Positions 9,001-64,000 of a stretch of DNA of 64,000 nt are shown here, one piece after another. The stretch covers positions 26,725,855 to 26,789,854 of the forward strand of contig NC_054867.1 of assembly GCF_018320785.1 (NCBI RefSeq), in the 5' to 3' direction. The stretch's first letter is position 1; the number at the start of each line of letters is the position of its first letter. The notes under the pieces were generated by a model. That model saw only the letters and a list, made by a program, of their open reading frames with translations. It was not told where the DNA came from and did not search any database. Made by a program: the position numbers and the translations under genes. Source of the stretch: Cheilinus undulatus. Lineage: Eukaryota; Chordata; Actinopteri; Labriformes; Labridae.

Positions 9001-12000
9001 CGTTTGCCATAACTGGTAATGAGTCTTTCGTATCATTGTGGAGGAATTTTGGCCCACTCTTCTTCGCAGAATTGTTTTAACTCAGCCATATCGGAGGGTT
9101 TTTCGAGCAAGAACTGCGCATTTCATTTGCTGTACACTTGTTGGTGTATTTTGGGTAGTTGTCCTGCTGCATAACCCAAAAGTGCTTGAGCTTGAGGGCA
9201 CATACTGATGGCCGGACGTTGGCCTTCAGGATTTTCTGGTAGACAGCAGAATTCATTGTTCCATCAATCACAGCAAGTGGTCCAGGTCCTGAAGCAGCAA
9301 AGCAGCCCCAGACCATCACACAGCTGCCACGATGTTTTACTGTTGGCATGATGTTCTTTTTATCAAATGCTGTGTTATTTTTACGCCAGATGTAATGGGC
9401 CGCGCAGCTTCCAAAAGTTCAAGTTTTGTCTCGTCAGTCCACAGAATATTTCTCCAAAAGTCTTGGGGATCATCAAGATGTTTTTTGGCAAATGTGAGCT
9501 TTTTTTGTGTGTTCATTTTTGTCAGCAGTGGTTTTGGCCTTGGAACTCTCCCATGGGTGCTATTTTTGCCCAGTGTCTTTCTTATGGTTGAGTCATGAAC
9601 TCTGACCTTAACTGAGGCCAGTGTGGCCTACAGGTCTTCGGATGTTGTTCTTTTTCTTTTGTGACCTCCTGGATGAGTCGTTGTTGCACTCTTGGAGTCA
9701 GTTTGGTTGGCCAACCACTCCTGGGAAGGTTTACCACTGTTCCTAGTTTTCTCCATTTGTGGATAATGGCTCTGACTGTGGTTTGCTGGAGTCCCAAAAC
9801 TTTGGAAATGGCTTTGTATCCTTTTCCAGACTGATAGATTACAATCACTTTGTTTTTTCATTTGTTCTTGAATTCCTTTGGATCGTGGCATGATGCGTTT
9901 CTTTTTGAGATCTTGTAGCCTACTTCACTTTGTCTGACAGTTTCTATTTAAGTGATTTCTTGATTCAACAAATCTGGCGGTAATCAGGCCTGGGCGTGGC
10001 CAGTGAAATTAAACTCAGCTTTCCAAAAATTGTGGTTATTCACAGTTAACTCATGATTTAACAAGGAGGGCAATTACTTTATCACACAGGGCCAGATAGG
10101 TTTGGATTTTTATTTCCCCCTTAAAGAATGGCCTAATCATTCAAACACTGCATTTTGTATTTACTTGGGTTGTCTTTGCGAAATATAAAAATTGGTTTGA
10201 TGATCCAAAATATTTAGGTGTGATAAATATGCAAAAATTTCAGGATTCAGAGAGGGGGCAAATACTATTTCACAGCACTATAATTTGCAAGAAAATGGCT
10301 TTGAATGAGGATATATACCTTTTGTGTTTTGGGATAATAAAATAAAAATATGATTTTTACGGCAGTGATACTTTCCTTTCTGTTTTTAGTATTAATTTCT
10401 TGTGGGTTTTTTGTAGGTGACCATCACTGATACAGGAGTGAGGGGGATGATTGCTGTGGGTTTGGTGCCACAGTTCTACAAACTGGACCACCAGCCGGGC
10501 TGGCTCCCGCAGTCTGTGGCCTTTCATGCTGATGATGGAAAGTATGTGACAGTGAGGTTTTTTTGAACAAATCATGTAGACTAAAGATGTGGAATTCCAT
10601 AATTGATATCCATTTTTTCTTTGTCCTCCTAGCCAAAATGGTCATTGAGAGATTAGTGTTTGTATTGGACTTTAGAATTTGTTATGTAAATAACTCACTT
10701 TGTACGATTTTTTTAAAGTTATGAGAAAACATTACATATCTTATGATCATCATTAGAGCACCAGAAAATTGATGAGCATTGGGGAAGTACACAGGACTGT
10801 CCATTTACAGTTGTTAAAAGAAAATATGATGTGAATGTTTGCTCTCTGTTTCTGCTTAAAAGATCATACTGGAATATATCAACCCAATGCAACAGTGCTA
10901 AAAATGCCCAGTCTCAAAGTAGAGCTTCGGTTTTCTCTTAGTAGAAAGTTAGCTTACTGTGGATTCGTGAAAAGCAAATAAAGGGAAAGATGGGAGAGAG
11001 ATTGAAATAACATGGAACAAAAACACAGGCCTCATTATCTCAGAAAAGTTTGAGTCAATAGAAATGTGCGTATAAGACAAACGTAAGAATAAAACAGTGA
11101 GAATCAATAACTTTGGTATAGTCCTCTGACTTAACATTCTTTAGAGAAAATACTCAAGAGGAAGAAGCAAATGATTGTTATTAGTCTTCTTATTAGGTTA
11201 CTAAAAGAATATTTTGCTTGTCCTCTGATTTTTCTCAGTAAAAATGTTCAATATCCAGGACCTGATGATGAGCCCTTATCTTATACATTTGACCTGGCCT
11301 ACTTGTCTCTCTACAGGCTGTATAATGGAAACACTCTAGGACAGCAGTTTGGTCCTAAATGCTGCAGAGGTGACAGAATCGGCTGTGGGATATCTCTAGA
11401 CTCTGAGGATGGACATTTAACTGTGTTTTTTACCAAAAATGGAAAGGAAGTAAGTTCTCCTCACCCTTTCTTTACTTTACATAGAAACATTCAACCAGAA
11501 TGCTCTGGAAAGTATATTGAGTATTGCTGTCAAATGTTTGATTAATTTTGATTACTTAATCTCGGGGATGAATAATATTAAAACATGTTTGCTGGTTGCT
11601 TGCGCTCTGATGTGAACACACAGTCGTCTAAAGTAACTTTGTAACTTTGATTAGAAAAAGTGAAAAATTTCTCTGTATTCAAAAGTTTTATAAATTTATG
11701 AAAAAAAAAATCCCATATTCTACAGATTAACACCCCCCCTAGATTGACTTCTAAGTGGACAATCTGTCCTTGGTCTCAACTTCTTCTGTTTCAGAAGCTA
11801 GTAGAAATTTTTAATGCCATTCAGAAACATTTCCTTTCTGATATTTTTGTAACTATATATAAATATAACAATAATGCAGTCTTTCTCAAATTATCGACAT
11901 ATGTGATTAATTGCACTTAATTAATTACATATAGCCTAACTGACAGAGCTAATATTTATCTAACCTGCAAAGCAGGTGGATTGGCCAGATAGGATGTCTG

Positions 12001-15000
12001 TCATCAGGCAGATCAATCTTGCAAAACTTCAAGCTGATACACTTGTTCCCTATCAGATAAGGACTGGACAAGGGTCTGTCTGCTCTGAGGTTGTTAAGAT
12101 TAGGTTACTCATACAATCTAAAATCATGATAAAACACCTATGAATAGTTCATACAAAGATACTGTGATAAGAAAACTTATGTTTTAGGTTAAACTGTTTT
12201 ACTTTAAAGAACAAAAACAATTAAAATTGATACATATTTTTGACTGCATTATATCACTTTTTTGCGTGGGTCTCAAGGGGCCTCAGCTCTTTATAGATAC
12301 AAGTAGGGGGGCTCAGTCAGAAAAAGGTTGGAAACCACTGATCTACGACTTATGTTTTGGTGCTCTGATTGGCCTGTAATTATTGTGGCAGTTAAAGTCT
12401 TTGTCCTATCATCCTTTGAGGTTTTTTTTTTTGTTTGTTGTTGAAATTACTCTTCTCAAACACTGTCTATGGGGACAGATGTGAAATGTATCCCAGTCAG
12501 TTTAACATTAATCCACATAACACAGGTGTCTAAGTGACTCTAAATAGCTCTTTCTGGGCTCAGGTTGGCAGTGTTGAAGCCCCAGGGCCTCCTGAAGCTC
12601 TGTACCCAGCTGTGGGGATGCACTCCCTCGGAGAAGAAGTTCTGCTGGACCTGAACGCTGAATGGGGGATGGATGAAGATGATGGGCTCATGATAGTGGA
12701 CAGTCATGAAGAGGACTGGAGCCGTCTCCATGATGTCAAGGTGACCGGCACGGTAAGTCCCATCACACAGAAAAGATGAACAAAATAACTTCATTTACTT
12801 TTAGATTGTCTTTTATTTTACTTTGAGCCACATTTAAGTAAACTGATAGTTTTTCTTGTTAAGCCTTTTTAAGTGTGGTGATTGCCTGGTATCAGCTAGA
12901 AAATGAGGAGAATCTGTAAACACCAGATCATTTCAGAATGCCACTGGCAACTCATATTCACAGTAGTCTTTTATTTAACTAGCGGTCAGTTTAGCTCAGT
13001 TAGTCAAGCCTATGTATAAAGGCTACAGTCTTAAGCACAGTGATGGTGTGTGTCTTCCTGATCTCTCTCTCACCACATGTCCCATCCTTCCTTATCTTTC
13101 CTGTCTGTTATAGGCAAAAGCCCAAAATAGAAACTTAAAGGACTGTGTAACAGAGTCTTGAGATTACTGCTTATGAGGTTATTAAGACTTTACTGTTATT
13201 GGGTTTGAATTGAATTGAATTATGCTCAGAGCTTTTTAAAAAGTTAATTTCAAGATCTAATCATAAGCAAACTCATCTACAGCCATTTTAAATTAGCCAC
13301 CTGGTCCTTAACATGCTGTAAGATTTTACTTATAACTTATATATACAGTTGAAACCAGAAGTTTACATACACTATATAAAAAGGCACATAAACTTTTTTT
13401 TCTCACCGTCTAACATTAAATCAGATTAAACTTTTCCTGTTTTTGGTCAATTAGGATTACCAAAATTATTTCTATTTGCTAAATGCCAGAATAATGAGAG
13501 AGATCATTTTTTAGACATTTTTTCATTATTTTCTTGAGAGTCAGAAGTTTACATACATTTCATGAGTATTTGGTAGCATTGCCTTTAAACTGTATGACTT
13601 GGGGCAAATGTTTTGGATACGCTTCCACAAGCTTCTCACAATAGTTTGCAGGAATTTTGGCCCATTCCTCCTGGCAGAACTGGTGTAACTGAGCCAAGTT
13701 TTTAGGCCGCCTTGCTCACACATGCCTTTTCAGCTCTGCCCATAAATTTTCAGTGGGATTGAGATCAGGGCTTTGTGATGGTCACTCCAAAACATTGACT
13801 TTGTTATCCTTAAGCCACTTTGTAACCAGTTTGGCAGTATGCTTAGGGTCATTGTCCATTTGGAAAACCCATTTGCGCCCAAGCTTTAACTTCCTGGCTG
13901 ATGTCTTGAGATGTTGCTTCAGTATTTCTACATAATGTTCTTTCCTAATGATGCCATCTATTTTGTGAAGTGCACCAGTCCCTCCTGCAGCAAAACAACC
14001 CCACAACATGATGCTGCGACCCCCATGTTTCACAGTTGGGATGGTGTTGTCAGGCTTGCAAGCTTCCCCCTTTTTTCTCCAAATGTAACGATGGTCATTA
14101 TGGCCAAAAAGTTCAATTTTAGTTTCGTCAGACCACAGAACATGTCTCCAAAAATGAAGGTCTTTGTCCCTGTGTGCATTTGCAAACTGTAATCTGGCTT
14201 TTTTATGTTTCTTTTGGAGTAATGGCTTCTTCCTGGGAGAGTGGCCTTTCAGCCCATGTCGGTACAGGACTCGTTTGACTGTTGATAATGACACACTCTT
14301 ACCAGCTTCAGCCAGCATCTTCACAAGGTCTTTGCTTTTGTTCTTGGGTTGAGATGCACTTTTCAGACCAAAGCATGTTCATCTCTTGGACACAGAACCC
14401 GTCTCCTTCCTGAGCGGTATGATGGCTGGACATTCCCATTGTGTTTATACTTGCGTATAATTGTTTGAACAGATGAACGTGGCACCTTCAGGCATCTGGA
14501 AATTGCACCCAAGGATGAACCAGACTTGTGGAAGTCCACAATTCTCTTCCTGATATCTTGGCTGATTTCTTTTGATTTTCCCATGATGTTACACAAAGAA
14601 GCAGTGTGTTTCAGGTGTGCCTTAAAATACATCCACATGTGTGCCTCTGATTAACTCAAATGTTGTCAATAAACCTATCAGAGGCTTCCAAAGACATGAC
14701 ATCATCATCTGGGCTTTCCCAAATTGTTTAAAGGCATAGTAATCTTAGTGTATGTAAACTTCTGACTCTCAAAAAAATAATAAAAAAATGTCTAAAAAAT
14801 GATCTATCTCATTATTCTGGCATTTAGCAAATAGAAATAATTTTGGTAATCCTAATTGACCAAAAACAGGAAAAGTTTAATCTGATTTAATGTTAGACGG
14901 TGAGAAAAAAAAGTTTATGTGCCTTTTTATATAGTGTATGTAAACTTCTGGTTTCAACTGTACATTTCAACTCACTAAACATATTAGAAAGGCTGCTTGT

Positions 15001-27058: not shown

Positions 27059-42228
<15,170 letters not shown>

Positions 42229-48839: not shown

Positions 48840-51172
48840 GTGAGTGAGGCTTTAAGGTAGAGACATATCTTTTCCCTTTTATCCAGTTCTCTGTTAATTT
48901 AGGTAATGCATTCAACAGTCTGCTATTTACTTTATAAAACCTAATGCTCAGAAATAGCAGATAATGTATTAGCTTAATATTTCAGCGTCAATGTTAGCCA
49001 TCGCTGACTTGCTAACAAACGTTAGCTTAATCATCGGGAGGGGGAGGCACTCGCAACGACGGCCATCACGAATGTCTTTATCGTTCAATCTTGTCTCCAA
49101 CGAGTTAATCTTTGATTGCATTAACAAAAAATACAAGGATGAATTGATCCACTTTGCAAAGATGATACCCTCGTAAAGCTCGTATATCAAACTGTGTAGC
49201 AGGTGGGGGGGGGGGGGACCTCAAATTGTAACATTTTAGTGGGCGAGGGCGCCAGCGAGCAACTGGCTAGCTGCCGTTAGCCAGCTTGTTCAACATCAGC
49301 AAAACTAACGAGAGGTCGGGTGGTAGTGTGAAGGCCAGCTCAGTCCGTGTTGAAAATCTCAAGATGTTCCGGGTACTTCGTGTAGGATTTTATGTTTAAC
49401 TCATTGCAAAATACAGAGGCCAATGCAAAGTAACAAACTGCATGTAACTTAGCATTGTAGTCTATAAAAACCATTAGCAATTGTTAACCTTAGGCTAGCT
49501 GTCTGTTTTCCTAGCAGCGTTAGCTAGCAACGTAGCTTTTAACTGTCTGTGCATTTGCTGGGCTGTTGTCAGTATTCATATCCTCTATGATGGTATTTAA
49601 TAGTAGGGAACGTGAAGAAAAGGAAGACGTTGTTAGAATTAATCGATAAAATACAAGATAGGGCAGTATTTCTGTGATGAAATACGTGGCCTCCTCCAAG
49701 TACACCGTTACATGTTAAAACCCCATTTCCAAAAGTACAAAACTTAAAATTTCACATTACAAATAAGCATAACTGTAAACTAATATAATTAGTTTTGGGA
49801 GGATAATCGCACTGCCTTGTCCTGGAATATTAGGTGTGCTAACCTTCATGAACAAAAAATAAAACCATCCCACTCAGACAAGGTTTGTCCTACTTTACTT
49901 GGGCTGTAGTTGTTCCTTTTTATCCATACTGAAACATACTGAATTCAGCAGTTTCTATCAAAGTTTTACTGAAAAAGTCTTATGATTTTAATGTTTTTGG
50001 CATTGAAAATAAAAATCCTTGCCCAGATAAAGAGAAAATAATCAACACATGAATACACACTTAAAAGTTTTAGATATAATATTCTGCATGTCTTATCAAT
50101 TATACGTTCTGTATACTGGACATATTTTGTGTAAAAAGTTCATCTGCTTCAGAGTTTCTCTTAGTCACATTTCTTTATCTTTCATACAGTATTAGTATTA
50201 GATGTCAGTTATGGCAAAGCTTAGAAACTACGCATTTTAAGTTTTTATGCATTTATTGAATACTCAAAATGTACAAATATGCTTTGTGGTTGGATTGTCA
50301 GCATAAAGTTTAGTGATGTGCAAACTAATAAAAAACTTCTACTTAAGAAGCAGCCCTATAACCAACGTTATTAATGTTATTTGTGCTCAATTATTTTATG
50401 TAGATAACGGTTTCTAAATCCAAACTTCCCTTTAGTTTGTGGTTGAATGAGTGGTTGCTTTTGATGTTGTCTCAGTCAAAAGTCACACTTTTTTTTTTGT
50501 GGTAACTTAGTTCACAGAAGAACTAGGCTATTGCTTATTTCATTTATTACCTACTTTTTAGTTTCTAAAACTTTTGACAGTCCAGGTAGAAAAATATTTA
50601 ATTTTATTCTGACAATCGAGTAAAACTTAATGTCTTAAACTAACAGTTCCAAGCTAGACCCACTGTTTCTATACCAAGCTTGAAATTTTTTATGTGTATT
50701 GGCAAAACATCTTCTGCCAGTTGGTGCTTCTGTTATTATGTGATTTATTTTGTTGCTGAAGTAGTCAGGATGTCCAGTTGAAGGCAAACCCACATGTCTG
50801 TTATGGAAGTTTTTTCCTCACATGTTGGAGTTATTCATTTGCAAATATTTGTGGATGTCTTGTCTACTGGTGTATCGACTACTGAGCCATTATACAATCA
50901 TATTTTTGTGTGTCATGTTTTTAGATGTGTAAATTTTGTTTTAAATAAATGACCATTGTAAGTTGAGTCAATGTAATGTGTAATCATAAAGACAGCAAGG
51001 GATGCTGCGGTAATTTTAATGTCTGTCTGTTTCATCCACATCCTCCTTTTCTTCAGTTTTAATGCTAGATGAGTGAGGTGGGTGTGGCTTCCCACCAGCC
51101 CGACCATCCTGACTGACGGATCTCTGGATGACCTTGTCCCCACCCCTGTCCCTGCGCTCACATACACCACAG
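48840..51172 (+). other. Probable znf740 5'UTR intron
   Basis: No exon supported. Contains a G run (about 49204-49217). Otherwise AT-rich unique sequence. Confidence 0.45.
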
Positions 51173-51219
51173 CAATGTCACATCTGCCCAGCAGCTCAGT
51201 CCGCGACCATATGAAATGG
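51173..51219 (+). CDS. znf740: znf740 coding exon 1 (start codon)
   Basis: Acceptor ACACCACAG; ATG at 51175; donor TGG|GTTTGT. Encodes [15 protein letters not shown] and joins in phase 0 to [21 protein letters not shown] second possible start exists at the Met in the next exon (51454), but this upstream exon keeps the frame open and precedes a conserved LLxCE segment. Confidence 0.75.
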
Positions 51220-54200
51220 GTTTGTTGTTCTTGAGACCACCGAAGTGGTTACAAATAACTTTAATGCAGTCTTGTGTCACTCAGGATGTTGTCGTTGAAG
51301 ACTAGCTCGGCAAATGCCATTTGAGTTGTAGATATTCCTAAATTGTAAACGCTTTTTTAAATCTTTGACAGATTAAGTTAATGTTGTCCTTTATGCTCTT
51401 TCTTGACAGGCGGGGCTGCTCGGGTGCGAAGCTGTCCTCTCCAGCATGGCCCTAATGCAGGCCAGCTCCATGGCTGCTCCATCCAAAAAAATGATGACTC
51501 CACTCGGCCATGGACCGCCACAGAGAGAGGGACCTGACCGTGCACCCCAGAGTCACATGATCCTCCCATCTGGAATGAGCTGTCCACCCCTGGTTAGGAC
51601 CTTGAACTTGTCATAATGGATCATCCCTCTTTAGTAAAAAAGATTTTAAGAATTGAGCATGATTAACAGGTTATAGATAACATTAAACCATAGTGTAAGA
51701 GGCTCCACAAAATAGCCCCAGACCCCCACCTATAATTTTCTCTTATGCTAAAATGTAGATCTGTTTCAGATAGCACTTGTCCTAATCAGCATAGATCATC
51801 TTTCTCACTAAGAATAGAAAATGCTTAAGACAGTTGCTTTTTGCTCATTTGACTCAAATTTTCTAACCCACACTATTAAACACTGCATAACCATCCATCA
51901 TAAATGACAACTTAAAGGGGCTGCATTCACACTGTAGGCCTGAATGTTACCTGAATCTGATTTTTTCCCTTTTAATCTTTCTGAACAAAGCTTAGATCAC
52001 ATGGAACATGTTCTCTTCGAGTCAGTTTTGGGGCAGTTATGTGTGGATCCATTATAGTCAACACAGTAGTCTGATACAAGCACCACACTTTAAAAAGTGA
52101 TGTGAACAAAAAACAGACCTGAGCTAAACAAACAAACAGAAAACAGAATTGAGCATCAAAGCTTGCAGTATAAATGCAGCCATTGATCATTAAGTCATAC
52201 TCAGATAATTGGTCTTTAATTGCAGGGTTTCTAAAATCAGAAAATAATTGACATTTTCTATCTCCATAGCTTATCCGGAAGGAAGGTGAATTCCAAGCTC
52301 CCCGCCTGCTGGACGAGAAGGAGATGAGGGCCAATGAGGACATGCAGCAGAAAAAAAAGAACAGGAAATCAGTAACGCCCTGTAAAGTGAGAGAACAAGA
52401 GGGAAGGGGAGGGAAGGTCAGTGGCTGTGGTCGCTAAAAAGGGATTGGTCTCTGCCATGCATGTTAATTCCCCCTATTTTTTCTCGAATTAAAACAAAAA
52501 AGTGTTGCGAGCTGCTGGCACATGTGTTTGTGAAAACACTTCACTATACTCAAGTGTGGCTGAATCGGAGCCTTCATGTGTGCACTTTTTGTTTGTGTGG
52601 GGATGGGGGGAGGAGTTCAGGGAAGATGTGGAGGGGGTGGAGGATCTCTGGAGAGGAAAGAGGGGGAGGGGAGCGGAGTAAAGCGGAGCACAATAACTGC
52701 AGTTGTGTGCATATCAGGGGGAGCAGTAACATGGGGGCATTAGGCCATCAGAAGAGATTGTGCGATTTTTCTCAGTTTTGATGTTAATTACATGTTGTCA
52801 ACGAAGAAATGATGAGCCTTTCAATTGTCGTGGGTTCGCTCATAGATAATTAGGGTTTTAGAAAAGGGGAAATATGCAGGGGAAATAAAAAAATAACTAT
52901 GCAAAGTCTTTAGTGCGTGATCAACACCTTATGGCTTACATTTACTACCGTTCACCTAAGATCTAGCATTTCATCAGCAGTTGTGGGTGGGTATGTTTGA
53001 CAGATTTTGTGTTTTCACTATTAATGCCACAATTGAAACAAATGCTGAAATATTTTCCCTGTTCTCTGTAGGGCACAGGTGGAGATGAAAATGGCCCATC
53101 ATCCAAAGTGCAGAAAAATTTTATTTGTGATCACTGTTATGGAGCATTTAGGAGTGGATATCACCTAAAGAGACATATCCTCATTCATACAGGTATGGGT
53201 CACACTTGGAACAATTTTAATTCACTGTTAAGCCACCTTGTTGTGCCTGATTACATGAACCATGTGTTGATAGAGGCCCTGAAAGCTTGAGTTGGACTGA
53301 ATCTAGGAATGTGCAGCAACTGTAAGGTTTTGCAATGGCCTGCTAAAAAACCTTGTTTGGTAATAGCTTTTGCCTCACAGCTAATTGGTGGAATCTGTGG
53401 GGACTTGAACTAAAACTGGTGCTCTTCGGTTTAGGGGAGAAGCCGTATGCTTGTGCCGTATGTGACATGAGGTTTATTCAGCGTTACCACCTGGAGAGAC
53501 ACAGCCTCATTCACACGGGTATGCGTCTTTTAACCGTACCCATATTACATAAATGGGACTACATGTGTAGTCCATCACTTGGATTAATGGACAGATGCTC
53601 AGGGTTCATTTTGTCTTTGGACAGTAATTTCCAACAAAGCCACCCTTCAAATCTGTTCACCCCAAAATCAAAGCACAGTATTTGTCTCATTCATATTGAT
53701 TCCCCAACACCAGGAAAATTTGACAGAAGAGGATTAAATACAGCGTGGTCCAATGGTCCTGAGTCCACTATTGAAAATTGTTGTTTAAACTTTTAAAATT
53801 GATTATAGATCTTTCTACTTTGGACATCAAACATTGGCCTTACTGATTACTTTGATTACACTGGTAATGTTGTGAGCCTGCTGCTTATAGAGGAATTATA
53901 TACCTCACTTGTCAAGGTTTTTTTTGCATATTTGATCTTTGAATCTTTTAACAGTTTTCTTTATGTTGTTTGGTACATGCTTTGAATGGGGCTGATATTT
54001 TCAACTTGTTTGTTACAAGATATTTGAGCAAGTCCAGCAAGATGTTCTTTACCCATTTGAATTTGTGCTGCGGATGCAAATGCTGTTGTGTCCTGGAAGG
54101 ATATTGGCTTGGCACACTGGTGTTTTGTAGGGTGTGTTCACTAAAAGTGTAGTTTTTTTTTTCCTAATAAAAATACAGCTGTGTTTCCCACCAAGCTATT

Positions 54201-57200
54201 GCTGCTTGTTGCACAGCTCATGTAGTATAGCACCGCAGGCTGCATGAATGGGGAATACTTTATTACATGAGATGAGTAAGGGCACAAGTATGAAGAACCC
54301 AATCTGAATACCTACACAGTTTGACCATCAGAAAAGCACTTCACTGGAAACATATTTCACTACTTCTCTTTCATGGAGTGTCTTTGGGTTATTTGACCCA
54401 AGAATTCCTGTGCAGTCTTAAGTTTAGACGTGAATCAGAGTAAAAGGACGCACCTACAATTCAGCAACACCAACTGGATCCTTGGGACCCACTGGCAGTT
54501 ACTAGTCAGCTAAACTTATGAATAATATGTCTGTTAATTCAGGCCCACAGTGCTGGTTGAATGTTGTGTCTAAGCTGTAACACAGCTGCCTGCCACTAGC
54601 TGGAACTGGAGCTCCCTTTAACAGCTAATGCCATGTTGACTGAATGCTCTTCTGTTGAGAGAGTGTACTAGACAGATGGCATCTTGTAGCACAGAGCGGT
54701 TTGATATAGAGAATGGACATTAAGTTGGATTTGGACTATGTCATGTGGAACTAGCATAAAAACACTTGACTGAAGCAGTCTTTGACTGACACGGGTGTCT
54801 GAATGTTGACCTGCTAACCAGAATTTCCTCAGGATCCTTGCATGCTGCAAGCAAGTAGTGCTGCTTCATTCCACATATGTGCCATGTTATTTTTAACTGG
54901 GGCGCTCCAAGCACACATCAAGCTGAATAGAGCAGATTAGCAATTTTGAAATAAAACCCCATGTACAGACTGCTAATAGTGTTTACCATAGCTTATCAAC
55001 CTAATGTTAAAACAGACACCAACTGAACAGCAACCCAACCTTGTAAAGACATGCTGTTTTCACATTGTTTTATTTGCCCCTGATATTTGGAAGTGGTGAT
55101 CCATCTGTGGTGACTTCTTTAAAATTTGATCCAGTGGGCGTGGCGCTGTTAAAAAGAGTGAAATCATGGCACAGACAGATCGTATCATGCATGAATCCTG
55201 TTGGTTACAGCGTGTAGGACGACCAAAGGTGGTGGTTCTAGCAATGCCAGCATTAGATAAACCAAAAGACATTGTTTGCATACTTATTTATTCTCCAATA
55301 AAAGACAAAATTAAAAACAAATGCTGCTATGTATTACAAGCATTTCATATTCTTCTTTCAGACAATTGATATATGTTTGACTTATCTAAGTTTTTTCCTA
55401 AAAAATGCAGATAGATGAGATAGAAACTAAACTTAATTTTTTTTCAAGTAACTGGGATAAACAAAAATTAATTGCTCAAGATAAAAATAAACAGTTCTGT
55501 GAACAAGACTTTTTGATAGTGGACTTGAAAGTGGACTCAACTTTGTGGACCCCAGTGTATGAATGTGAAAGCCTCCAAACACAGGCCGATAAAGACATGC
55601 AAGATTTGTCTCCTTTTGTTAAACAAAATGTTTGTGTGTAGTTATTGCATGGACATCAAAGGACTATGGTTTAAATAAATTCTAGAGTATAATCAATGGA
55701 TAATTCAGGACTTAATATTAAAAAAATTGTGTTGCACCTTTTCATAAAAATATCTTTGTTTTCTATTGTTTAAGAAGAATGCTGTGGGTAAGTGAACTTC
55801 CACCAAATACCTCCCAGAGTCATTGGCACCACCACAGTATTCACAGTGAAAACCAATGGTGACATAATCCAGCTGGTCCAGTTGGGATGATTTAAACAAG
55901 CATATCTTTTTCAATTCGGTATCCCAGTATCCAAGCTGTTTCTTTTATGTGGCGACAATGCATCTGTTCTTTCTTTTTTTTTTGTTGTCCACATTTTATT
56001 TGATAGACCAAATAGCTAATATTCTTATGCTCTGTGTGTGTAGGAGTGAAGCCGTATGCTTGTTCCATGTGTGACATGAGGTTTTTCCAGCGTTACCACC
56101 TGGAGAGACACAGACTCACTCATACGGGTATGCGTCCTTTTGCCGTACCCAGATCAACTATATGAATTGTTTAGAAACTATAGAAACATTACCTTATGCC
56201 AAGCTGCTCTAGGATCAGTTCAGGATGAATAAAATTACAGCATTAAGTAATGCTCAGGTTTAACTATTGGGGTTCATACCTGAAATCATTGGTACACTGA
56301 TATGTGAGAAAACTGTTAAGGTATCCTTTAAATACACTGTAACCTTAATAGCACAGTCTTGAACCAAAGACAGCTGCTAAAATCACTTGATCAACTAAAT
56401 TAGGCCAACACACTATAGCAATATACTTGTAGTTGTGCACCACATGTTTCCAGTGATTGGCTCTTTTTAAGTGTATGCAAACACTTTAAAGGAAGGCATA
56501 TCTCCTGTGGACTGCTCAGAGTGAATTATCCCTGTTGTACCATTGCTGCTTAACATTTTCTTTGCGTTTTTATTACTTTTTTCCCTAGGCACTGGGTTTT
56601 TATCACACTTACAGAGTCACAAACATACAAAAGCATTTTTAAAAACCTCTGTTGAATCAAAGGAGATACAGCATTTATTGCATTATCCATCATTGATTGA
56701 AGTACTTTTATATATGCATTAGAAGCAATGGACTCATTGTAATAAGGACAAAATATATATTTTTTTAACAAGTAGGACTATCTAGCCAAGGTGCATTGAA
56801 AAATTTGCTTGATTGTTGCTTTACTTGAAGGCCACAATCGGCTTGATAACCAACAGTTAAAAGTTTTAGTGTATTGTTGTTAATAGATCGTTTTTATGCC
56901 ATTGTTCCTGATAAAGCCTGTCAGCCATGGTATAATATGGGAATAGTCCTTTGATGTCCACACCTATTTTATACCACTATTTATAGCTGTTTGGCTCACA
57001 TGTCGATGCTGTAATTTTCAGGCTTTTGTAACGGGATTTTCTATTGTACTGTTGCTTGTGAACATGTCCAGCTGTTAGCGTATGGCAGAGATCAGACTGG
57101 AAGCTTTTTAAAGTTGAGGCAGATCTTCAGTGTAGAGTCCTAGAGAACGATATGACTTGTAACACTAAAGAGAAACATGCACTTTGAAAGCCAACAATCC

Positions 57201-60200
57201 AGCTTTCTTAAATCTGCACTTATTTCAACCTGCAGTAAGCAGCAACACATACATCCTCTAAAACATTCAAATATGTTGAGTCGTAACAGCCCAAGGCAGA
57301 GAGTTGTGTTATGCGATCATTATTCTAGATGTTTTGTTTCTATCGCTGCTGAGGTTTCTGTTTGTTTTACATGCTTGGCTTATATGCTGTTGCTAATCCT
57401 GTTTCTCAATGTTTTTGGTCATTTGAAAATGAATGCTCCATTTGATAAAAAATACTTTGGCTTAAGTAAAACAAATCCCCCTTTTGGCATGAAGCTTGAT
57501 CGGAATGTTCGATGTTTGCCAGGTCCCAGTGATTAAATGTTTGTGAATCATGCTGTCCTTTAATGCTTTAGTAACTTCTTAGCTAACATGTTGATACTCT
57601 GTGTATGTAGGGGTGAAGCCGTACGCTTGCTCCATGTGTGACATGAGGTTCTTCCAACGTTACCACCTGGCAAGACACAGCCTCACTCATACTGGTATGC
57701 GTCTGATTACCTGAGTTCATTAGGTAGTGGGATTTTAAGACGTATCATAACTGTTTAACCTGTAGACAGAGATTTAGGCTGTCCAAAATGACTACAAGAC
57801 TGAAATACTCTCATACTGAGTAAGGATGTATCCAGACATGTGTTAGGAAGGTAGGATTTAAAACTAGCCTTTCTTAGGGAAAAGTTGATTGTATTATGTT
57901 AATATCTATCTGTTTCAAGCTTTCATTTGCATACTTTTCATGTGTGTAGGGGTGAAGCCATACGCTTGCTCCATGTGTGACATGAGGTTTTTCCAACGAT
58001 ACCACTTGGCAAGACACAGCCTCACTCACACGGGTACAAGTTCCCCTTTTCTTTACTCCACAAGGGCCTAAATACCCTGTTTACTTAAGATTACCTTCCC
58101 CCTTTTTAGCTTCACTGCTGTGCCAGTTAATAAGATCTTAACTTGTGTCTTCAGACTTCACCTCTAACTTCCAGTATTGAAAAACTGCACTTACTTCTCT
58201 TAAAGGTATTTTTATTGTTGCCCCCTTATTGTTAACTAGGGGTGTAAAGGTACATGTATTTGTACCGTACCGTACTGATTCGGTACGTTCCTCTCAGTAC
58301 GGTACAGATGTGTACCGAATGGATACATGTGGATCAAAGCTCACATACAGACAGAAAACCAGAGCGCAACTCCCAGTCACTCTGTCCTGGCAACCACACA
58401 ACCACAGCAAACGACAGCAACAGCCTGAATATTCCCAGGTAAAAGTGTCCTGTTTAGGAACACTTTGGTTCCCAGTAAAATGCGACAGTGGACAAAGACA
58501 ACAACAGTAGCGCTGACATTATTCAGCAGCTGTGCCGCTGACAGCACGTCGTCCAGCAGATCAATGAAAGCGTTTTAAAAAGCACCACTCAAACAAGAAC
58601 GTCACTGTAATGAGGAAGAACAACAAAGTCTCACCCGCCGGTTATGAATTTTCTTTTAAGATTGTTTTTGTTATAAAACTGGTTCTCTGGCTTTGTGAAT
58701 CAAATTAATTCTAAACACGTACCTTCAACTGTCAGCCTCAGAGGAGGGGGACAAGGGACTCCATCATGTCTGCATCTGCATCGTAGAAAAAGTTATCCTC
58801 AGATTTCAAACGGCTCTAACTTCTTTATCTGCCAAGATGAGCTGTGAAAAGTTCTCCCAAACTTTGTAGTAGGTCCCATTGTTTAAAAAAGTAATCCAGT
58901 GCTGAAGAAATTTTAGTGTTTAAAGAAGTTATTTATTCGCTTAATTACCGTACCGAAAACGTATCTAACCACAACTTCAAAACCGAGGTACGTGCCGAAC
59001 CGAAATTTTTCTGTACCGTTACACCCCTATTGTTAACACATCAGAAAATTTAAACGCTTTAAGTGTGAAGTCATATCAGCGCCCCTGCTTTGGCATGTCT
59101 GGATACATAACTAAAGTGAGTGTGTCCTGTTCAGTTTTTTTGTGTTGTTTTTAAAAGTATATTTCTCTGTGTGTGCAGGGGTGAAGCCATATGCTTGCTC
59201 CATGTGTGACATGAGATTTTTCCAGAGATACCACCTGGCAAGACACACTCTCACACATACGGGTATAAGTTTTACTTACCCCTCTCACCCAACACCTTCA
59301 GGGGTTATACATGCTAGCTCTTATGTGTAGGCATTTCCTACTTGTGAGAGAACTTTGATACAAAAATAAAAAACTTGAGCTACTCAGTCCATGTTGCTGC
59401 TTTATTTTCTAGTGCACTCATTGTATTTAACTGTTTAAGATTTTAGTTTCCAATTTTCTGTCTTGTTTGTACATTGACCAAGAAACCATAAAGTACAACA
59501 GTTACTACTGTATATAAAATGTCTAAATAGTTCATGAGAACACTTTTCTAAAGTTTGGTACTGTATGCGTTTAGGGGTGAAGCCATACGCTTGCTCCATG
59601 TGTGACATGAGGTTCTTCCAGCGTTACCATTTGGCAAGACACAGCCTCACTCATACTGGTATGCTTGAATTAACTGTTCCCCTTTCCCTACAAGCCTTTC
59701 ATATACACATCCTCCACATTTTTTTCTTAATGTCAACTCCCCCTCTAAAATGTTTATGTAGGCTTTGTTGGAAAACTGTCCACTGAAAAAGTGACTCTCT
59801 GTCTGTAACCATTTTTGTGATTGATTTTGTAATATACTATTGCATGTGTATTATGAAGTGTTATGTTAAATATTTATTAAAAAGCATATCACACTAACAA
59901 GAGTTCAAACACAAGCTGTGATAGTACTATAATCCAGTTAGAAATTACAACCTTTTTCAAGATTGTTGAAGGCAAATAAAAGAAGCCTGATAAGTTTTTA
60001 ATCTCTGTTAATACTTGTGTATTTGGCATTGTTGTCTAAATTATAGTTTTTAAACCTGTCTGTTTTGGAGATGCTTCTTAACTCGACATCTGCTGGTTTT
60101 TGGACTCTGTGGTGCTTTATGCCTAATAGATTTTTGTCAGAGCTAATGCATGAACAATCAGAATTAATGCTAAGTAAACTCAATTTCACCTTTGTGCTGA

Positions 60201-63200
60201 AATGCATCTAACATTATTTTGCTCTGTTTAGGGGTGAAGCCATATGCTTGTACCATGTGTGACATGAGGTTCATACAACGTTACCAACTGGAAAGACACA
60301 GTCTTACTCATACAGGTATGTCCTCTTTTTTAAAAACCTTGATCTCTATCACTGCTTTAAGTTGTGCATGCGCCTCACATTTACGGTAATATGGCTGCCT
60401 CAAACTCGAGTTTGTGCTGCTTTCTGTCACTTTTTTAATAGAAGAGCTAATTTTAGCTTCTGTAACCTGCACCCATACTTTGTATTTGAAATGACAACTC
60501 AGGTTTTAGTTCCAAATCTTCTTTGGCAAGGTAAAACAGGAGTCAGCACAGTTTCTCTGTTAAATTATGTAACATGAAATGCTCAGTAGCTTAGTGGCAC
60601 AAATAGGAATATTTTACCAGCACTTAAACTATTAGGCTGTCCTGCAAGCAAAAAGGTAAAACTTTACATGTAGATCTCTTTTCTTTATTTGATACGCATG
60701 TAAAGCTTCCTGATGAAGGAGTAAGGTTGTCAAAGTTTTCCATACTTTGATGCTTTTTCGATACCACGTGCTTTAAATGATACAGTATCCATCATTTTTA
60801 TGTTTGATAGCACCAAAAGTATCAAAGTTTGAAGGAAAAAAAAACCAAATATACATTTAGATTTCATCCCAAAAATGTCATTAGAGGAGAGAGGTAGACA
60901 GCGTGCAATGATGGGCCATCAAAAGAGAGCAAGTGTCGGCGTCCTGTTGCTAAAACAGAGTTGTGATATGGAGAGAGAAGATGTCATCTCCAGATTGTTT
61001 TATAGTGGTGCTTCTAAAGAAGTTAGAAATGCACAAAAACCTCTGCACAGACATGAAGGAAGATTCAGGATTTTGGTTTGACTGATGCGAGCCTCTTTCT
61101 GCCCAGTGTTTTCCTCTCTGCCCTCCATCACAGCCTCTATAATTGCTGTGGGGTTTGTTATTTCGCGAATTTGTTTATTAAGTCCCTTTAGCACCTCTCA
61201 AAGATGAAGCATTAACATTGTTGTCAGGGATAGTGATGTCGCCTGATTTCTAAAAGTTTTCCTTTACATCCTGACCTGTAGACTAATGACAGCTTCACAG
61301 CCCCGCACAAACACTGACCCCTATAAAATAATATATAAGAATAACTTTGGAATTACAGTCAGGGAAGAGAATCACTGCCTACAGCCCGTTTGGTTTGTTG
61401 ATGATAATTGAGGGGAAATATTTGATTTTAGGTAGTCCCTATACCAGTTTTATTAGGAAAATCTTATGGTTTTCTTATTACTTTGTATGTTATGTCAAGT
61501 GCTTGGGTGTAAACAATAAAAAACAAATCAGTTTTGAGTGTTGCTTTGGTATCGAAACGGGTATTGATATTGTTTGATTTTTAGCTAGTATAGTATTGAA
61601 ATTTATAATTGTGGTTTGTGACAGCTCTAGTTTAGAGATGTCATGTTTTAATATCACATCAGAGCTGTGAGGAGGTTCAATAAAGATTAGACATATTAAA
61701 TGGTGTGATGCTAAATCTGAGTTAAAGAAGATGTATACTGTCTAACAGTTGCAGGTGTATGACAGCCCAGTGATAATCAAATCTTTAAATGTTCAACAAA
61801 AGACGATGGAACCACATCAGCTTTAATTTTTCTTATTGAAGGATTCAAGGACTTTCCAGGATGCGACAAAAGATGGTTCAAATGAATGAATTAGTACATC
61901 ATAGTCTTGTTTCCTGGTGAAATGCAGAGACCCACTGAATCTTAAGGTGTTTTCACAGCGACAGCTCCATAGGAAAGCATTGCCATCATAATGCCTTCAG
62001 ACTTTGGTTTTGGTTCAGCAACAGCTTTGTATGAAGTGTCCTGATATGGTGCAGCAGGAGCTCCACATGCACACACAGTCAGAAATGCTACATTGGCTTT
62101 AGTTAGTGTCGGTAGGACTGATTATAATCAAAATTGACAGATTTTTATCCTGTTTAGAAAATATGGCTGACTTTTCACACAATGTTGTAATTGTGTCATT
62201 TCACATTCAAAGTTATGGTTAGGAAATAACATGTAACCCTCTATAATTAATACTTTTTATCTCAATGGCTTTCATAATGGAAAACAGATATATGTAAGGA
62301 CATTTGTTACTTGTTATTCTGCTTTAACAACAGTTTTAAACCTGTAAGAGAGAAGAGTTATGGATTTATTTTGAATTGAATCGTGAACTATTTTCTTTAT
62401 GATGATTTTCAGAATATATTCTGTATTCATATACTTTATTTGAAGCTAAATCATTTGCTCTGCAAACTAATGTACAACCTTATTGTGCTCTGCATATTCA
62501 TAAAACCAACTGCCTAAAATAGTCTGACCTCTGTGATCAGCGTGAAAGAAATTCAAGATGTCAGATGACCAATTTAACCCAGAAATCAACATTATGCAAG
62601 CTGAAATTATATGAAGACAAATCTATTTGGCATAAGCTGAAAAATTTCCTATTGTGCAAGCTGGAACATGCTTACTGGGGATGTTTGCCTCAAATAACTG
62701 GTTTTAGTAGGTTTGGCAGTAAGGTGAATTTTACTATCGTGGAATATCTATATTTTATCTTCAACATTGGATCTCTAGCAGTCACTGGATCGTTTGAATG
62801 AAATGCTGATTCTAATTGGAAAAGCGGATATTTTGGAACCATGCTGGATTTTCCAGTTGAAATAAAGCGCTGATGAGTGCAACCAAACTTTACTAAGCAA
62901 TTAGTAAAGTTTAACATCGATCATTTTTGGCAGTTGAGTGTCTTTGTGCTAAAGTTGGTACTTTGTGTGTATAGGGGTGAAGCCGTACGCTTGCACCATG
63001 TGTGACAAGAGGTTTTTTCAGCGCTACCACCTGGCGAGACACAGCCTCACTCATATGGGTATGCCTCTGCCAATCTTAACCCAATCGTATGATTAGGATA
63101 CTGTAACATCTGTGTACTTGATTAAGTCTTAAACTTCTATGTTTTATCATTTAAGTTGACTACAAATAGATAGCATCCTCATCTCATATACTGTGATGTG

Positions 63201-63948
63201 TAAATGGATGTAAGATCCCATCTGTGAATTTGGTATATGAAGACCACATCTTCTTATCATTATATTGTACCTTTTTTAATTTAGGGTATTACATTGGTTA
63301 TTAACCACAGTTATCAATTGAAACCCAGATAACTTTTATAGCACAGATTTATCTGTTTTGTCTTGGCTGCAGAGACATGAAAAATAATTGTCTTGCTGCT
63401 CTGCATTTAGGTGTGAAGCCTTATGCTTGTTCCATGTGTGACATGAAGTTTTTTCAGCGTTACCACCTGGCGAGACACAGCCTCACTCATACTGGTATGG
63501 GTCCGTGCACCGTGCCCATGACATTTAGTGTTAGAAATCAGTGTGCACATGTTGGCTTTCTAAGTTCACCCCATACATATGCCTGCTTTATTTATGGGAA
63601 ATAACATTTGGAATATTGAAAACTATTCCCTCAATTTCTGTAACTAGTATTTATATCTTGAACATGATGTGAATATAATAGATATTTTGTTAAGTTTGCT
63701 GGTAACCACAATAATGAGAGAGGTATTACTTTGATCTTAAAAAGTCTTGTTTTTGCATGAATTGGCATTGTGTGGTTAATAACCAATAGCTTAGGTTAAA
63801 TATTTTTTTAATGACACAATGGAAATGGAGGCAAAGTAATAAAATACTGCTACTTTGCATTTAGGTGTGAAACCTTATGCTTGCACCATGTGTGACAAGA
63901 GGTTTTTTCAGCGCTACCACCTGGCGAGACACAGCCTCACTCATATGG
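51175..63948 (+). CDS. znf740: Zinc finger protein 740-like, gene continues beyond window
   Basis: Four N-terminal coding exons (45, 183, 147 and 121 nt) followed by ten 84-nt exons, all in consistent phase, encode 445 residues if every exon is used; the 3' end is outside the window. The N-terminal region has APSKKMM and [19 protein letters not shown]. Finger 1 ([20 protein letters not shown]) and finger 2 ([14 protein letters not shown]) match mammalian ZNF740 closely. ZNF740 is a nuclear C2H2 protein with a known preference for C-rich DNA. Mammalian ZNF740 has three fingers; here eleven are in view, nearly all with helix residues Q-Y-H-R at -1, 2, 3 and 6. The linker TGEKP is TGVKP from finger 3 on. 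All array introns are phase 1, so any unit can be skipped in frame. Confidence 0.92.
51410..51592 (+). CDS. znf740: znf740 coding exon 2
   Basis: Acceptor TTCTTGACAG and donor CTG|GTTAGG; 183 nt, 61 codons. Encodes [40 protein letters not shown] and on to [19 protein letters not shown] is shared with mammalian ZNF740. Confidence 0.88.
52270..52416 (+). CDS. znf740: znf740 coding exon 3
   Basis: Acceptor TCTCCATAG and donor AAG|GTCAGT; 147 nt, 49 codons. Encodes [20 protein letters not shown] and the basic stretch [20 protein letters not shown], a plausible nuclear localisation signal. Confidence 0.9.
53072..53192 (+). CDS. znf740: znf740 coding exon 4 with finger 1
   Basis: Acceptor TCTCTGTAG and donor ACAG|GTATGG; 121 nt ending in phase 1. 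Encodes [17 protein letters not shown] and finger 1 (C144, C147, H160, H164; [10 protein letters not shown]). Confidence 0.95.
53193..53434 (+). other. znf740 short intron between finger 1 and finger 2 exons
   Basis: 242-nt intron, donor GTATGG, acceptor TTCGGTTTAG. No repeat recognised. Confidence 0.8.
53435..53518 (+). CDS. znf740: znf740 finger 2 exon (84 nt)
   Basis: Acceptor CGGTTTAG, donor ACGG|GTATGCG. Encodes [20 protein letters not shown] then RHSLIHTG. This is the array unit closest to mammalian finger 2 and the only one with the canonical TGEKP linker. Confidence 0.96.
53519..56043 (+). other. znf740 intron before finger 3 (2.5 kb)
   Basis: No recognisable exon or element; ends with a TG-rich acceptor (CTCTGTGTGTGTAG). 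Short open frames only. Confidence 0.55.
56044..56127 (+). CDS. znf740: znf740 finger 3 exon (84 nt)
   Basis: Encodes [20 protein letters not shown] then RHRLTHTG; acceptor GTGTGTGTAG, donor GTATGCG. Helix residues Q-Y-H-R. The first unit with the V-for-E linker change. Confidence 0.95.
56128..57610 (+). other. znf740 intron before finger 4 (1.5 kb)
   Basis: No element recognised. The start (GTATGCGTCCTTTTGCCGTA) is shared with the intron after finger 2. Confidence 0.55.
57611..57694 (+). CDS. znf740: znf740 finger 4 exon (84 nt)
   Basis: Encodes [20 protein letters not shown] then RHSLTHTG; acceptor GTGTATGTAG, donor GTATGCG. Same peptide as fingers 5 and 7, with silent differences only. 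Confidence 0.96.
57950..58033 (+). CDS. znf740: znf740 finger 5 exon (84 nt)
   Basis: Same peptide as fingers 4 and 7; acceptor CATGTGTGTAG, donor ACGG|GTACAAG. The 255-nt intron before it is one of the shortest in the array. Confidence 0.96.
58237..59029. mobile_element. hAT element, 793 bp, with perfect 8-bp target duplication
   Basis: Ends are TAGGGGTGTAAAGGTAC and, reversed, TAGGGGTGTAACGGTAC. It is flanked by TTGTTAAC on both sides (58229-58236, 59030-59037), an exact 8-bp duplication. Inner repeats rich in GTACCG/CGGTAC follow each end. No transposase frame, so non-autonomous. It lies between the finger 5 and finger 6 exons. Confidence 0.92.
59179..59262 (+). CDS. znf740: znf740 finger 6 exon (84 nt)
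   Basis: Encodes [20 protein letters not shown] then RHTLTHTG (Ser to Thr relative to fingers 4, 5 and 7); acceptor GTGTGTGCAG, donor ACGG|GTATAAG. Confidence 0.96.
59575..59658 (+). CDS. znf740: znf740 finger 7 exon (84 nt)
   Basis: Same peptide as fingers 4 and 5, differing at the DNA level only silently; acceptor GCGTTTAG, donor ACTG|GTATGCT. Confidence 0.96.
59659..60231 (+). other. znf740 intron before finger 8
   Basis: 573 nt, no element recognised. Confidence 0.6.
60232..60315 (+). CDS. znf740: znf740 finger 8 exon (84 nt), divergent helix
   Basis: Encodes [20 protein letters not shown] then RHSLTHTG. The His at helix position 3 seen in every other unit is Gln here. Ile after the conserved Phe and Glu before RH recall finger 2. 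Acceptor GCTCTGTTTAG, donor ACAG|GTATGTC. Confidence 0.95.
60316..62974 (+). other. znf740 intron before finger 9 (2.7 kb)
   Basis: Contains a probable degraded hAT-like repeat (about 60724-61630) with ends AAGGTTGTCAAAG and, reversed, AGAGCTGTCACAAAC and GTATCGAAAC-type inner sequence. The rest has nothing recognised. Confidence 0.45.
62975..63058 (+). CDS. znf740: znf740 finger 9 exon (84 nt)
   Basis: Encodes [20 protein letters not shown] then RHSLTHMG. Met replaces the usual Thr of the inter-finger linker and Lys replaces Met after CD. Acceptor GTGTGTATAG, donor ATGG|GTATGCC. Confidence 0.95.
63411..63494 (+). CDS. znf740: znf740 finger 10 exon (84 nt)
   Basis: Encodes [20 protein letters not shown] then RHSLTHTG; acceptor TGCATTTAG, donor ACTG|GTATGGG. 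Confidence 0.96.
63865..63948 (+). CDS. znf740: znf740 finger 11 exon (84 nt), mosaic of fingers 10 and 9
   Basis: The first 18 or so bases and the GCATTTAG acceptor match finger 10; the last 65 bases are identical to finger 9, including the THMG end. Donor ATGG|GTAGGCG. The gene continues past 64000. Confidence 0.95.
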
Positions 63949-64000
63949 GTAGGCGCCCGCCCACCGTACCAATGTCACTGAGATCAAAGTAACATGATGT

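Follow-up and report, generated by a model that had tools for sequence, protein, structure and literature searches.

Tandem single-finger exons between fingers 1 and 2 of znf740a in Cheilinus undulatus: hybrid-like structure, constraint, and likely variable-finger splicing

Introduction

The number of fingers in a zinc-finger protein is usually fixed by the gene sequence and altered only by mutation. A stretch of 64,000 nucleotides from the labrid fish Cheilinus undulatus (the window) raises the question of whether finger number can also be set by splicing, as it contains a row of short exons of equal length, each encoding a single C2H2 finger. In a preliminary description of the window these exons were assigned to znf740 and viewed as a possible modular source of DNA-binding proteins with variable finger number.

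Rows of repeated exons that give a variable number of repeats or a choice among them are known from the titin PEVK region, the CD44 variable exons, and the Dscam clusters; none of these encodes DNA-binding fingers, and in Dscam the exons differ from one another and are used in a mutually exclusive way. In CTCFL (BORIS), unlike the gene considered here, the fingers differ in specificity and are encoded by ordinary exons with no known tandem exon duplication. Variable finger number through splicing is described for BORIS in the available part of the corresponding paper (PMC4230356) and also, in the accessible text of another (PMC12896614), for IKZF1 (Ikaros), where alternative finger-bearing exons, as proposed for znf740a, change the number of DNA-binding fingers, and where finger number was the basis for analysing clones with edits in exons 4 and 6. 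The IKZF1 exons, in contrast to those of znf740a, are few and dissimilar, with no tandem near-identical copies. Thus variable finger number by splicing is already known, whereas a fish znf740 exon array, with tandem near-identical finger exons, was not found described in the open-licence literature searched, which included the titles and opening abstract lines of 40 of the 113 papers that name ZNF740.

Results

Identity of the Gene

By sequence comparison, the gene at the array locus is teleost znf740a, a C2H2 transcription-factor gene. N-terminal sequences of the ZNF740 family (including LIRKEGEF) and finger 1 (F1) are both present at the locus, and finger 2 (F2, reading CDTCDMRF in C. undulatus), finger 3 (F3, SRTDRLLRHRR), and the C-terminus GRLAV are found 6.4-8.0 kb past the window end (Table 1). 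In a tree of the N-terminal part and finger 1, constructed for the window and 48 proteins chosen from 218 (rooted at the midpoint, with 14 of its 44 inner branches left open), the window sequence fell within a set of 19 clupeocephalan znf740a rows with support 100/99, and all rows of gar, bowfin, and teleost znf740b lay outside this set. The ancestral znf740a product is presumably a protein with three fingers, F1-F2-F3. A possible in-frame start lies upstream of the coding part of the 5' exon, at 51069, and the donor of this exon is weak (1.66 by a 5' splice-site matrix with a maximum of 12.62; all donor scores below are from this matrix).

Table 1. Exons of znf740a in the window and in the following genome sequence; positions past 64000 continue the window numbering along the same assembly
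Feature	Position	Strand	Length and phase	Remarks
5' exon, coding part	51175..51219	+		tblastn of teleost znf740a proteins and sequence
Exon ending ...CPPL	51410..51592	+		tblastn against teleost znf740a models, 84-97% over the exon
Exon ending ...GRGGK	52270..52416	+		tblastn against znf740a models
Finger 1 (F1) exon	53072..53192	+	121 nt, phase 0 to 1, asymmetric	match to teleost znf740a proteins
Cassette C1	53435..53518	+	84 nt, phase 1	intact C2H2 finger
Cassette C2	56044..56127	+	84 nt, phase 1	
Cassette C3	57611..57694	+	84 nt, phase 1	
Cassette C4	57950..58033	+	84 nt, phase 1	protein identical to C3; weak donor
Cassette C5	59179..59262	+	84 nt, phase 1	protein end ...ARHTLTHT; weak donor
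Cassette C6	59575..59658	+	84 nt, phase 1	protein identical to C3
Cassette C7	60232..60315	+	84 nt, phase 1	Q at helix position 3; strongest donor
Cassette C8	62975..63058	+	84 nt, phase 1	
Cassette C9	63411..63494	+	84 nt, phase 1	
Cassette C10	63865..63948	+	84 nt, phase 1	protein identical to C8; last cassette inside the window
Cassette C11	64353-64436		84 nt, phase 1	beyond window end
Cassette C12	67183-67266		84 nt, phase 1	beyond window end
Cassette C13	67641-67724		84 nt, phase 1	beyond window end
Cassette C14	69934-70017		84 nt, phase 1	beyond window end
Finger 2 (F2) exon	70422-70540		119 nt, phase 1 to 0	finger 2 and first part of finger 3; beyond window end
Last exon	71782-71955		 	stop codon ends at 71955; beyond window end

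Structure of the Exon Array

Fourteen exons of 84 nt, here called cassettes, follow F1 in the genome and precede F2 and F3, all of them bounded by AG and GT and in phase 1 (14/14). Since they lie between F1 and F2, the cassettes are not the original fingers of znf740a. The window edge splits the array, leaving ten cassettes inside and four (C11-C14) in the following genome sequence. For the ten, the preliminary description was right in coordinates, splice-site dinucleotides, open frame, and the presence of all Cys and His ligands in one C2H2 finger per exon; all ten are real, but the count was incomplete, as the genome has 14 units. Its statement that any subset can be spliced without frame loss extends to the whole array, all 14 cassettes being symmetric. 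By contrast, its view that each exon has a good acceptor and donor holds for the AG and GT but not for overall donor strength: the donors of C4 (1.53) and C5 (1.90) are weak and most others are middling, with scores of 4.4-6.4 in seven of the ten window cassettes and 11 of 14 overall. The strongest cassette donor is that of C7 (9.64); F1 scores 8.44 and the F2 exon 7.3. Acceptors of the window cassettes are 61-78% pyrimidine in the 18 bases scored (n = 10), and a TG-repeat tract is present in six of the 14 acceptors (C2, C3, C4, C5, C8, and C14).

Every cassette has the form C-x2-C-x12-H-x3-H with the hydrophobic F and L (14/14). A strict C2H2 pattern matches the 64-kb window 11 times, at the ten cassettes and finger 1, and has no match in 100 first-order Markov simulations of 53001-64000. 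The introns between cassettes measure 255-2746 nt, and every skip or join preserves the frame. A hypothetical protein with every cassette joined would have 17 fingers; Pfam zf-H2C2_2 recognizes 16 stretches in it, and zf-C2H2 is also found. Among the best 60 of 217 matches to solved structures were other C2H2 proteins, none of them named ZNF740. Hidden, decayed, or minus-strand cassettes in the array introns of the window were considered and rejected, as tblastn with a cassette query (E up to 10) returned only short weak matches there.

The 100-nt intron flanks of the ten window cassettes are 56-69% alike upstream and 55-67% alike downstream (downstream values involving C10, which the window end cuts, are left out), slightly above a baseline of random pairs with mean 58%, standard deviation 3, and maximum 73% of 200. 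In most cassette flanks the similarity detected by blastn ends within some tens of bases; it reaches further for C10 versus C12.

The intron segment just 3' of C1 (53519..53667, + strand), when translated, is 67-80% like read-through models of three percomorph entries, with 26/33 identical residues for P0017, 39/49 for P0020, and 33/49 for P0029, versus only 14/49 (ungapped) for P0019. The read-through frames after C1 have no common end among the models. These similarities, which come from protein models, suggest that the segment may contain either a conserved regulatory element of the intron or a short alternative 3' end.

Relation of the Cassettes to the F1 and F2 Exons

The 14 cassettes were compared, segment by segment, with the F1 and F2 exons of the same genome. 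On average, exon positions 1-48 agree with F2 at 77% and with F1 at 35% of bases, and positions 49-69 at 85% and 70%, respectively, both segments being closer to F2 in 14/14 cassettes; positions 70-84 are 42% like F2 and 76% like F1, and closer to F1 in 14/14. The affinity to F1 continues past the exon: the first 12 bases of the intron match the F1 intron at 62% and the continuing F2 exon at 35%, and are nearer to F1 in 13/14. The best switch from F2 to F1 falls between exon positions 68 and 70, and when the 64 informative sites, taken as independent, were permuted 20000 times, no permutation scored as high. Immediately upstream of the cassettes, 15 bases of intron show 43% similarity to the corresponding bases of F2 and 27% to those of F1, a similarity so low that the origin of the acceptor can be traced only weakly. 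Thus each cassette looks like a hybrid of about 69 nt of finger-2 body with 15 nt of finger-1 end and the finger-1 donor.

Such a structure probably arose when, in an ancestor of clupeocephalan teleosts, the exons of F1 and F2 underwent unequal exchange, with the exchange point in the GAGACA stretch of the finger helix, which is common to both. A single exchange of this kind would yield exactly the order F1 - hybrid - F2, the hybrid combining the F2 body with the F1 end and donor. Neither parent can be repeated in frame, because the F1 exon (121 nt) and the F2 exon (119 nt) are asymmetric, whereas the hybrid would automatically be symmetric (phase 1-1), and so open to inclusion, skipping, and further multiplication without frame loss; it would then have been amplified and retained. 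A weaker alternative to the exchange is that the F1-like 15-nt tails could have arisen in part by convergence on a common linker and donor.

The distribution of these features was followed in 148 znf740-like proteins among 218 fetched. Tails of the F1-like form xLxHT/M occur in 107 of 128 F2-type fingers of 37 picked clupeocephalan znf740a models, the other 21 being KRVHS, versus 0 of 54 F2-type fingers in a second set of 23 models, picked from elopomorphs, osteoglossomorphs, tetrapods, lungfish, and fish with three fingers. Cassette-type fingers are present in 36/37 clupeocephalan picks, the single exception being P0024, in 0/23 of the second set, and in 0/88 of the remaining proteins, that is, in none of the other 111 znf740-like proteins, gar, bowfin, and znf740b included. 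Teleost znf740b and gar, bowfin, and bird znf740 share the finger types F1, F2, and F3 with znf740a and have no cassette-type finger in the fetched models; the name znf740b is used in a zebrafish paper (PMC9748118).

Cassette Subsets in Database Models

Protein searches, with matches counted as clusters at 90% identity, were considered to the best 120 of 649, 42 of 42, and the best 120 of 3759 matches. Eighteen models of other clupeocephalan teleosts are complete, i.e., contain the N-terminus, F1, F2, and F3, and hold 0, 1, 1, 1, 2, 2, 3, 3, 3, 4, 4, 4, 4, 4, 5, 5, 5, and 6 cassettes; the model with none is P0024 of Brachionichthys, and those with one are P0018, P0021, and P0025. The other 19 of the 37 were set aside from the count as incomplete, fused, or reading into introns (e.g., P0001, P0003, P0005, P0012, P0130, and P0122). 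The longest run, of eight cassettes, is in a Cyprinus model without F2-F3 (P0122). No listed model holds all cassettes, and most of the isoforms were predicted automatically, a procedure in which short reads may be stitched together; several predicted znf740a models end inside introns.

The Danio models labelled X30 and X19 do not differ in their N-terminal parts and contain 1 and 5 cassettes, respectively; they are titled differently, as zinc finger proteins 148 and 501, and we infer that they represent one gene. Isoform labels reach X49 in Salvelinus alpinus. The cassettes are colinear with those of C. undulatus in 20 of 21 percomorph or salmonid models, and in 11 of the 12 that allow a test of order, the exception being the percomorph model P0001 from Poecilia. 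Among 17 otophysan, Denticeps, or salmonid models, five depart from the sequence in which the ten window cassettes follow each other, so that either the copies differ between lineages or the annotations are wrong. Two short contigs are probably RNA: in P0020 (957 bases) several exons are joined through F1 to C1 and the sequence then runs into the intron, and P0144 (at most 2193 bases) comes out of the intron before C14 and then has C14, F2, and F3 joined. Contigs of this kind presumably derive from sequence-read archives, and the Nothobranchius entries we take to be of transcriptome origin.

Judged mostly from predicted models of other fish, variable-finger splicing of znf740a is likely. The earlier suggestion of a locus with variable finger number is partly supported by the frame neutrality of the cassettes and by the subsets in database models, but the diversity would concern finger number and reach rather than binding specificity.

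Selection on the Cassettes and Alternative Explanations

The cassettes are constrained. Over 91 cassette pairs, mean pS is 0.406 and mean pN is 0.060, giving pN/pS of 0.15, and codon position 3 holds 637 of the 988 base differences between cassettes. Models of Takifugu, Aulostomus, Nothobranchius, Scophthalmus, and Pagothenia contain the C7 type, with the helix QRYQLER, exactly; the Salvelinus form differs from it by one change.

This conservation bears on the possibility that the three-finger core alone matters and that the cassette combinations are weakly spliced or are artefacts of gene prediction. The models are indeed mostly predictions, two donors are weak, and the Brachionichthys model is complete with no cassette; however, unused copies are expected to decay, and both the low pN/pS over 14 copies and the C7 type, unchanged in five fish genera, argue against mere splicing noise, which we consider unlikely. 

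Intact and constrained frames in 14/14 cassettes would equally be expected if (nearly) all cassettes were spliced in, so that the gene made a single unvarying protein with as many as 17 fingers, and skipping were rare. Mandatory inclusion has a precedent in the duplicated helix exon of vertebrate COE/EBF, one extra copy that occurs, unlike the many copies of znf740a, in all gnathostome transcripts characterised in the part of the paper available (PMC2394523). Nevertheless, no complete model exceeds six cassettes, the Danio pair differs by four, donor strengths are uneven, and the search that admitted proteins to about 949 aa (42 clusters) gave none with more than eight, all of which makes a constitutive chain decidedly unlikely.

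A choice of exactly one cassette per transcript, as in Dscam, is suggested by the tandem near-identical exons of the same length and phase and by the three complete models holding one cassette. Still, it is very improbable, since two or more cassettes are present in 14/18 complete models, most of them predicted; moreover, with introns of the observed lengths and a frame that is always kept there is no steric or frame barrier to joining cassettes, and exact complements of 9-12 nt common to the introns, the only words sought as docking/selector pairs, did not exceed the maximum of 30 shuffles.

Finally, a recent repeat expansion or an assembly artefact with no lasting function is scarcely credible and was rejected, for although C10 equals C12 and C11 equals C13 over all 84 nt, with the introns between them 78% alike, and C14 is near C1 and C2 (dS 0.10 and 0.13), so that part of the array must have been block-duplicated or converted, dS is at least 0.30 in 41 of 45 pairs of the ten window cassettes, and the same cassette types, including orthologous cassettes, are found in models of several teleost families. 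The identical exons and similar introns point to duplication or conversion of a two-exon block. The block C10-C11 (63865-64436) compared with C12-C13 (67183-67724) suggests gene conversion or synonymous-site constraint.

Discussion

Overall, an account in which the locus is znf740a, its cassette array was founded by a hybrid exon, varying subsets of the cassettes are spliced in, and their inclusion affects site length or affinity seems to us the probable one. The residues contacting DNA are nearly uniform in the array: 14/14 cassettes have Q at helix position -1 and R at position 6, 13/14 have H at position 3, where C7 has Q, and 13/14 have Y at position 2, where C14 has N. By the usual recognition code, helices of the cassette type would prefer a GGR-type triplet. 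The DNA motif of ZNF740, which we take to be C-rich, agrees with this predicted preference. Constraint together with near-invariant contact residues implies that what the array would vary is the count of fingers and not their specificity; a main role in diversifying DNA-binding specificity was considered and judged unlikely, given the nearly invariant contact positions.

In the mechanism that we propose, cassettes with mostly middling splice sites would be taken up as varying subsets, with the genomic order kept, and the joined cassettes, linked by TG(V/E)KP, would form proteins of three to many fingers. More cassettes would mean a longer recognised G/C-rich tract or higher affinity with unchanged sequence preference, as near-identical helices should extend the site or its affinity and hardly alter its letters. 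A more specific version is conceivable but doubtful: znf740a could act as a splice-programmed molecular ruler, in which regulated choice among the 14 exons sets how many near-identical GGR-type triplets are spanned (three to about 17 fingers), the array having been founded by one unequal exchange. If that is true, one gene would supply a graded set of proteins that read how long a G/C-rich tract is.

Compared with genes whose finger number is fixed by their sequence, znf740a appears to have it set by splicing, with near-identical fingers. It would thus allow a study of how the number of fingers affects DNA binding, with specificity little changed. The putative hybrid exon, moreover, offers a simple route from two asymmetric exons to a frame-neutral exon that can be amplified, and makes the origin of skippable domain exons directly testable across fish genomes. 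The COE/EBF family is similar to znf740a in having an exon duplication inside a DNA-binding protein with an asymmetric parent exon; there, as far as the accessible text goes, the parent exon became insertable via a new donor in a two-step process (PMC2394523), whereas in znf740a a hybrid with the neighbouring exon would have served this end.

Extra fingers occur in other znf740 genes as well. In elopomorph, osteoglossomorph, lungfish, and frog models, finger 2 or groups of fingers are present in additional copies, and the F2-type units of these models have finger-2-like ends, in most cases KRVHS or KRIHS, in contrast to the clupeocephalan cassettes; with such ends, these expansions probably arose separately from the znf740a cassettes. 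The kinds seen outside clupeocephalans include pairs of fingers 2-3 and finger 2 with an LW linker, and such differences by lineage imply that extra fingers arose more than once in the ZNF740 family. Repeated finger 2-3 pairs with proline-rich spacers, in proteins of up to 845 aa, are seen in relatives from eel, bonefish, arapaima, and mormyrid (P0124, P0126, P0127, P0128, P0131, and P0132), and additional finger-group copies in the lungfish and frog ZNF740 models P0048, P0110, and P0115.

Elsewhere in the window, three open frames resemble other proteins by eye: a Tc1/mariner-type transposase at 13782-14378 (- strand), a SPRY-domain protein (SPRYD3-like) at 11135-11545 (+ strand), and a LIM-domain protein (LIMA1-like) at 27059-28129 (- strand).
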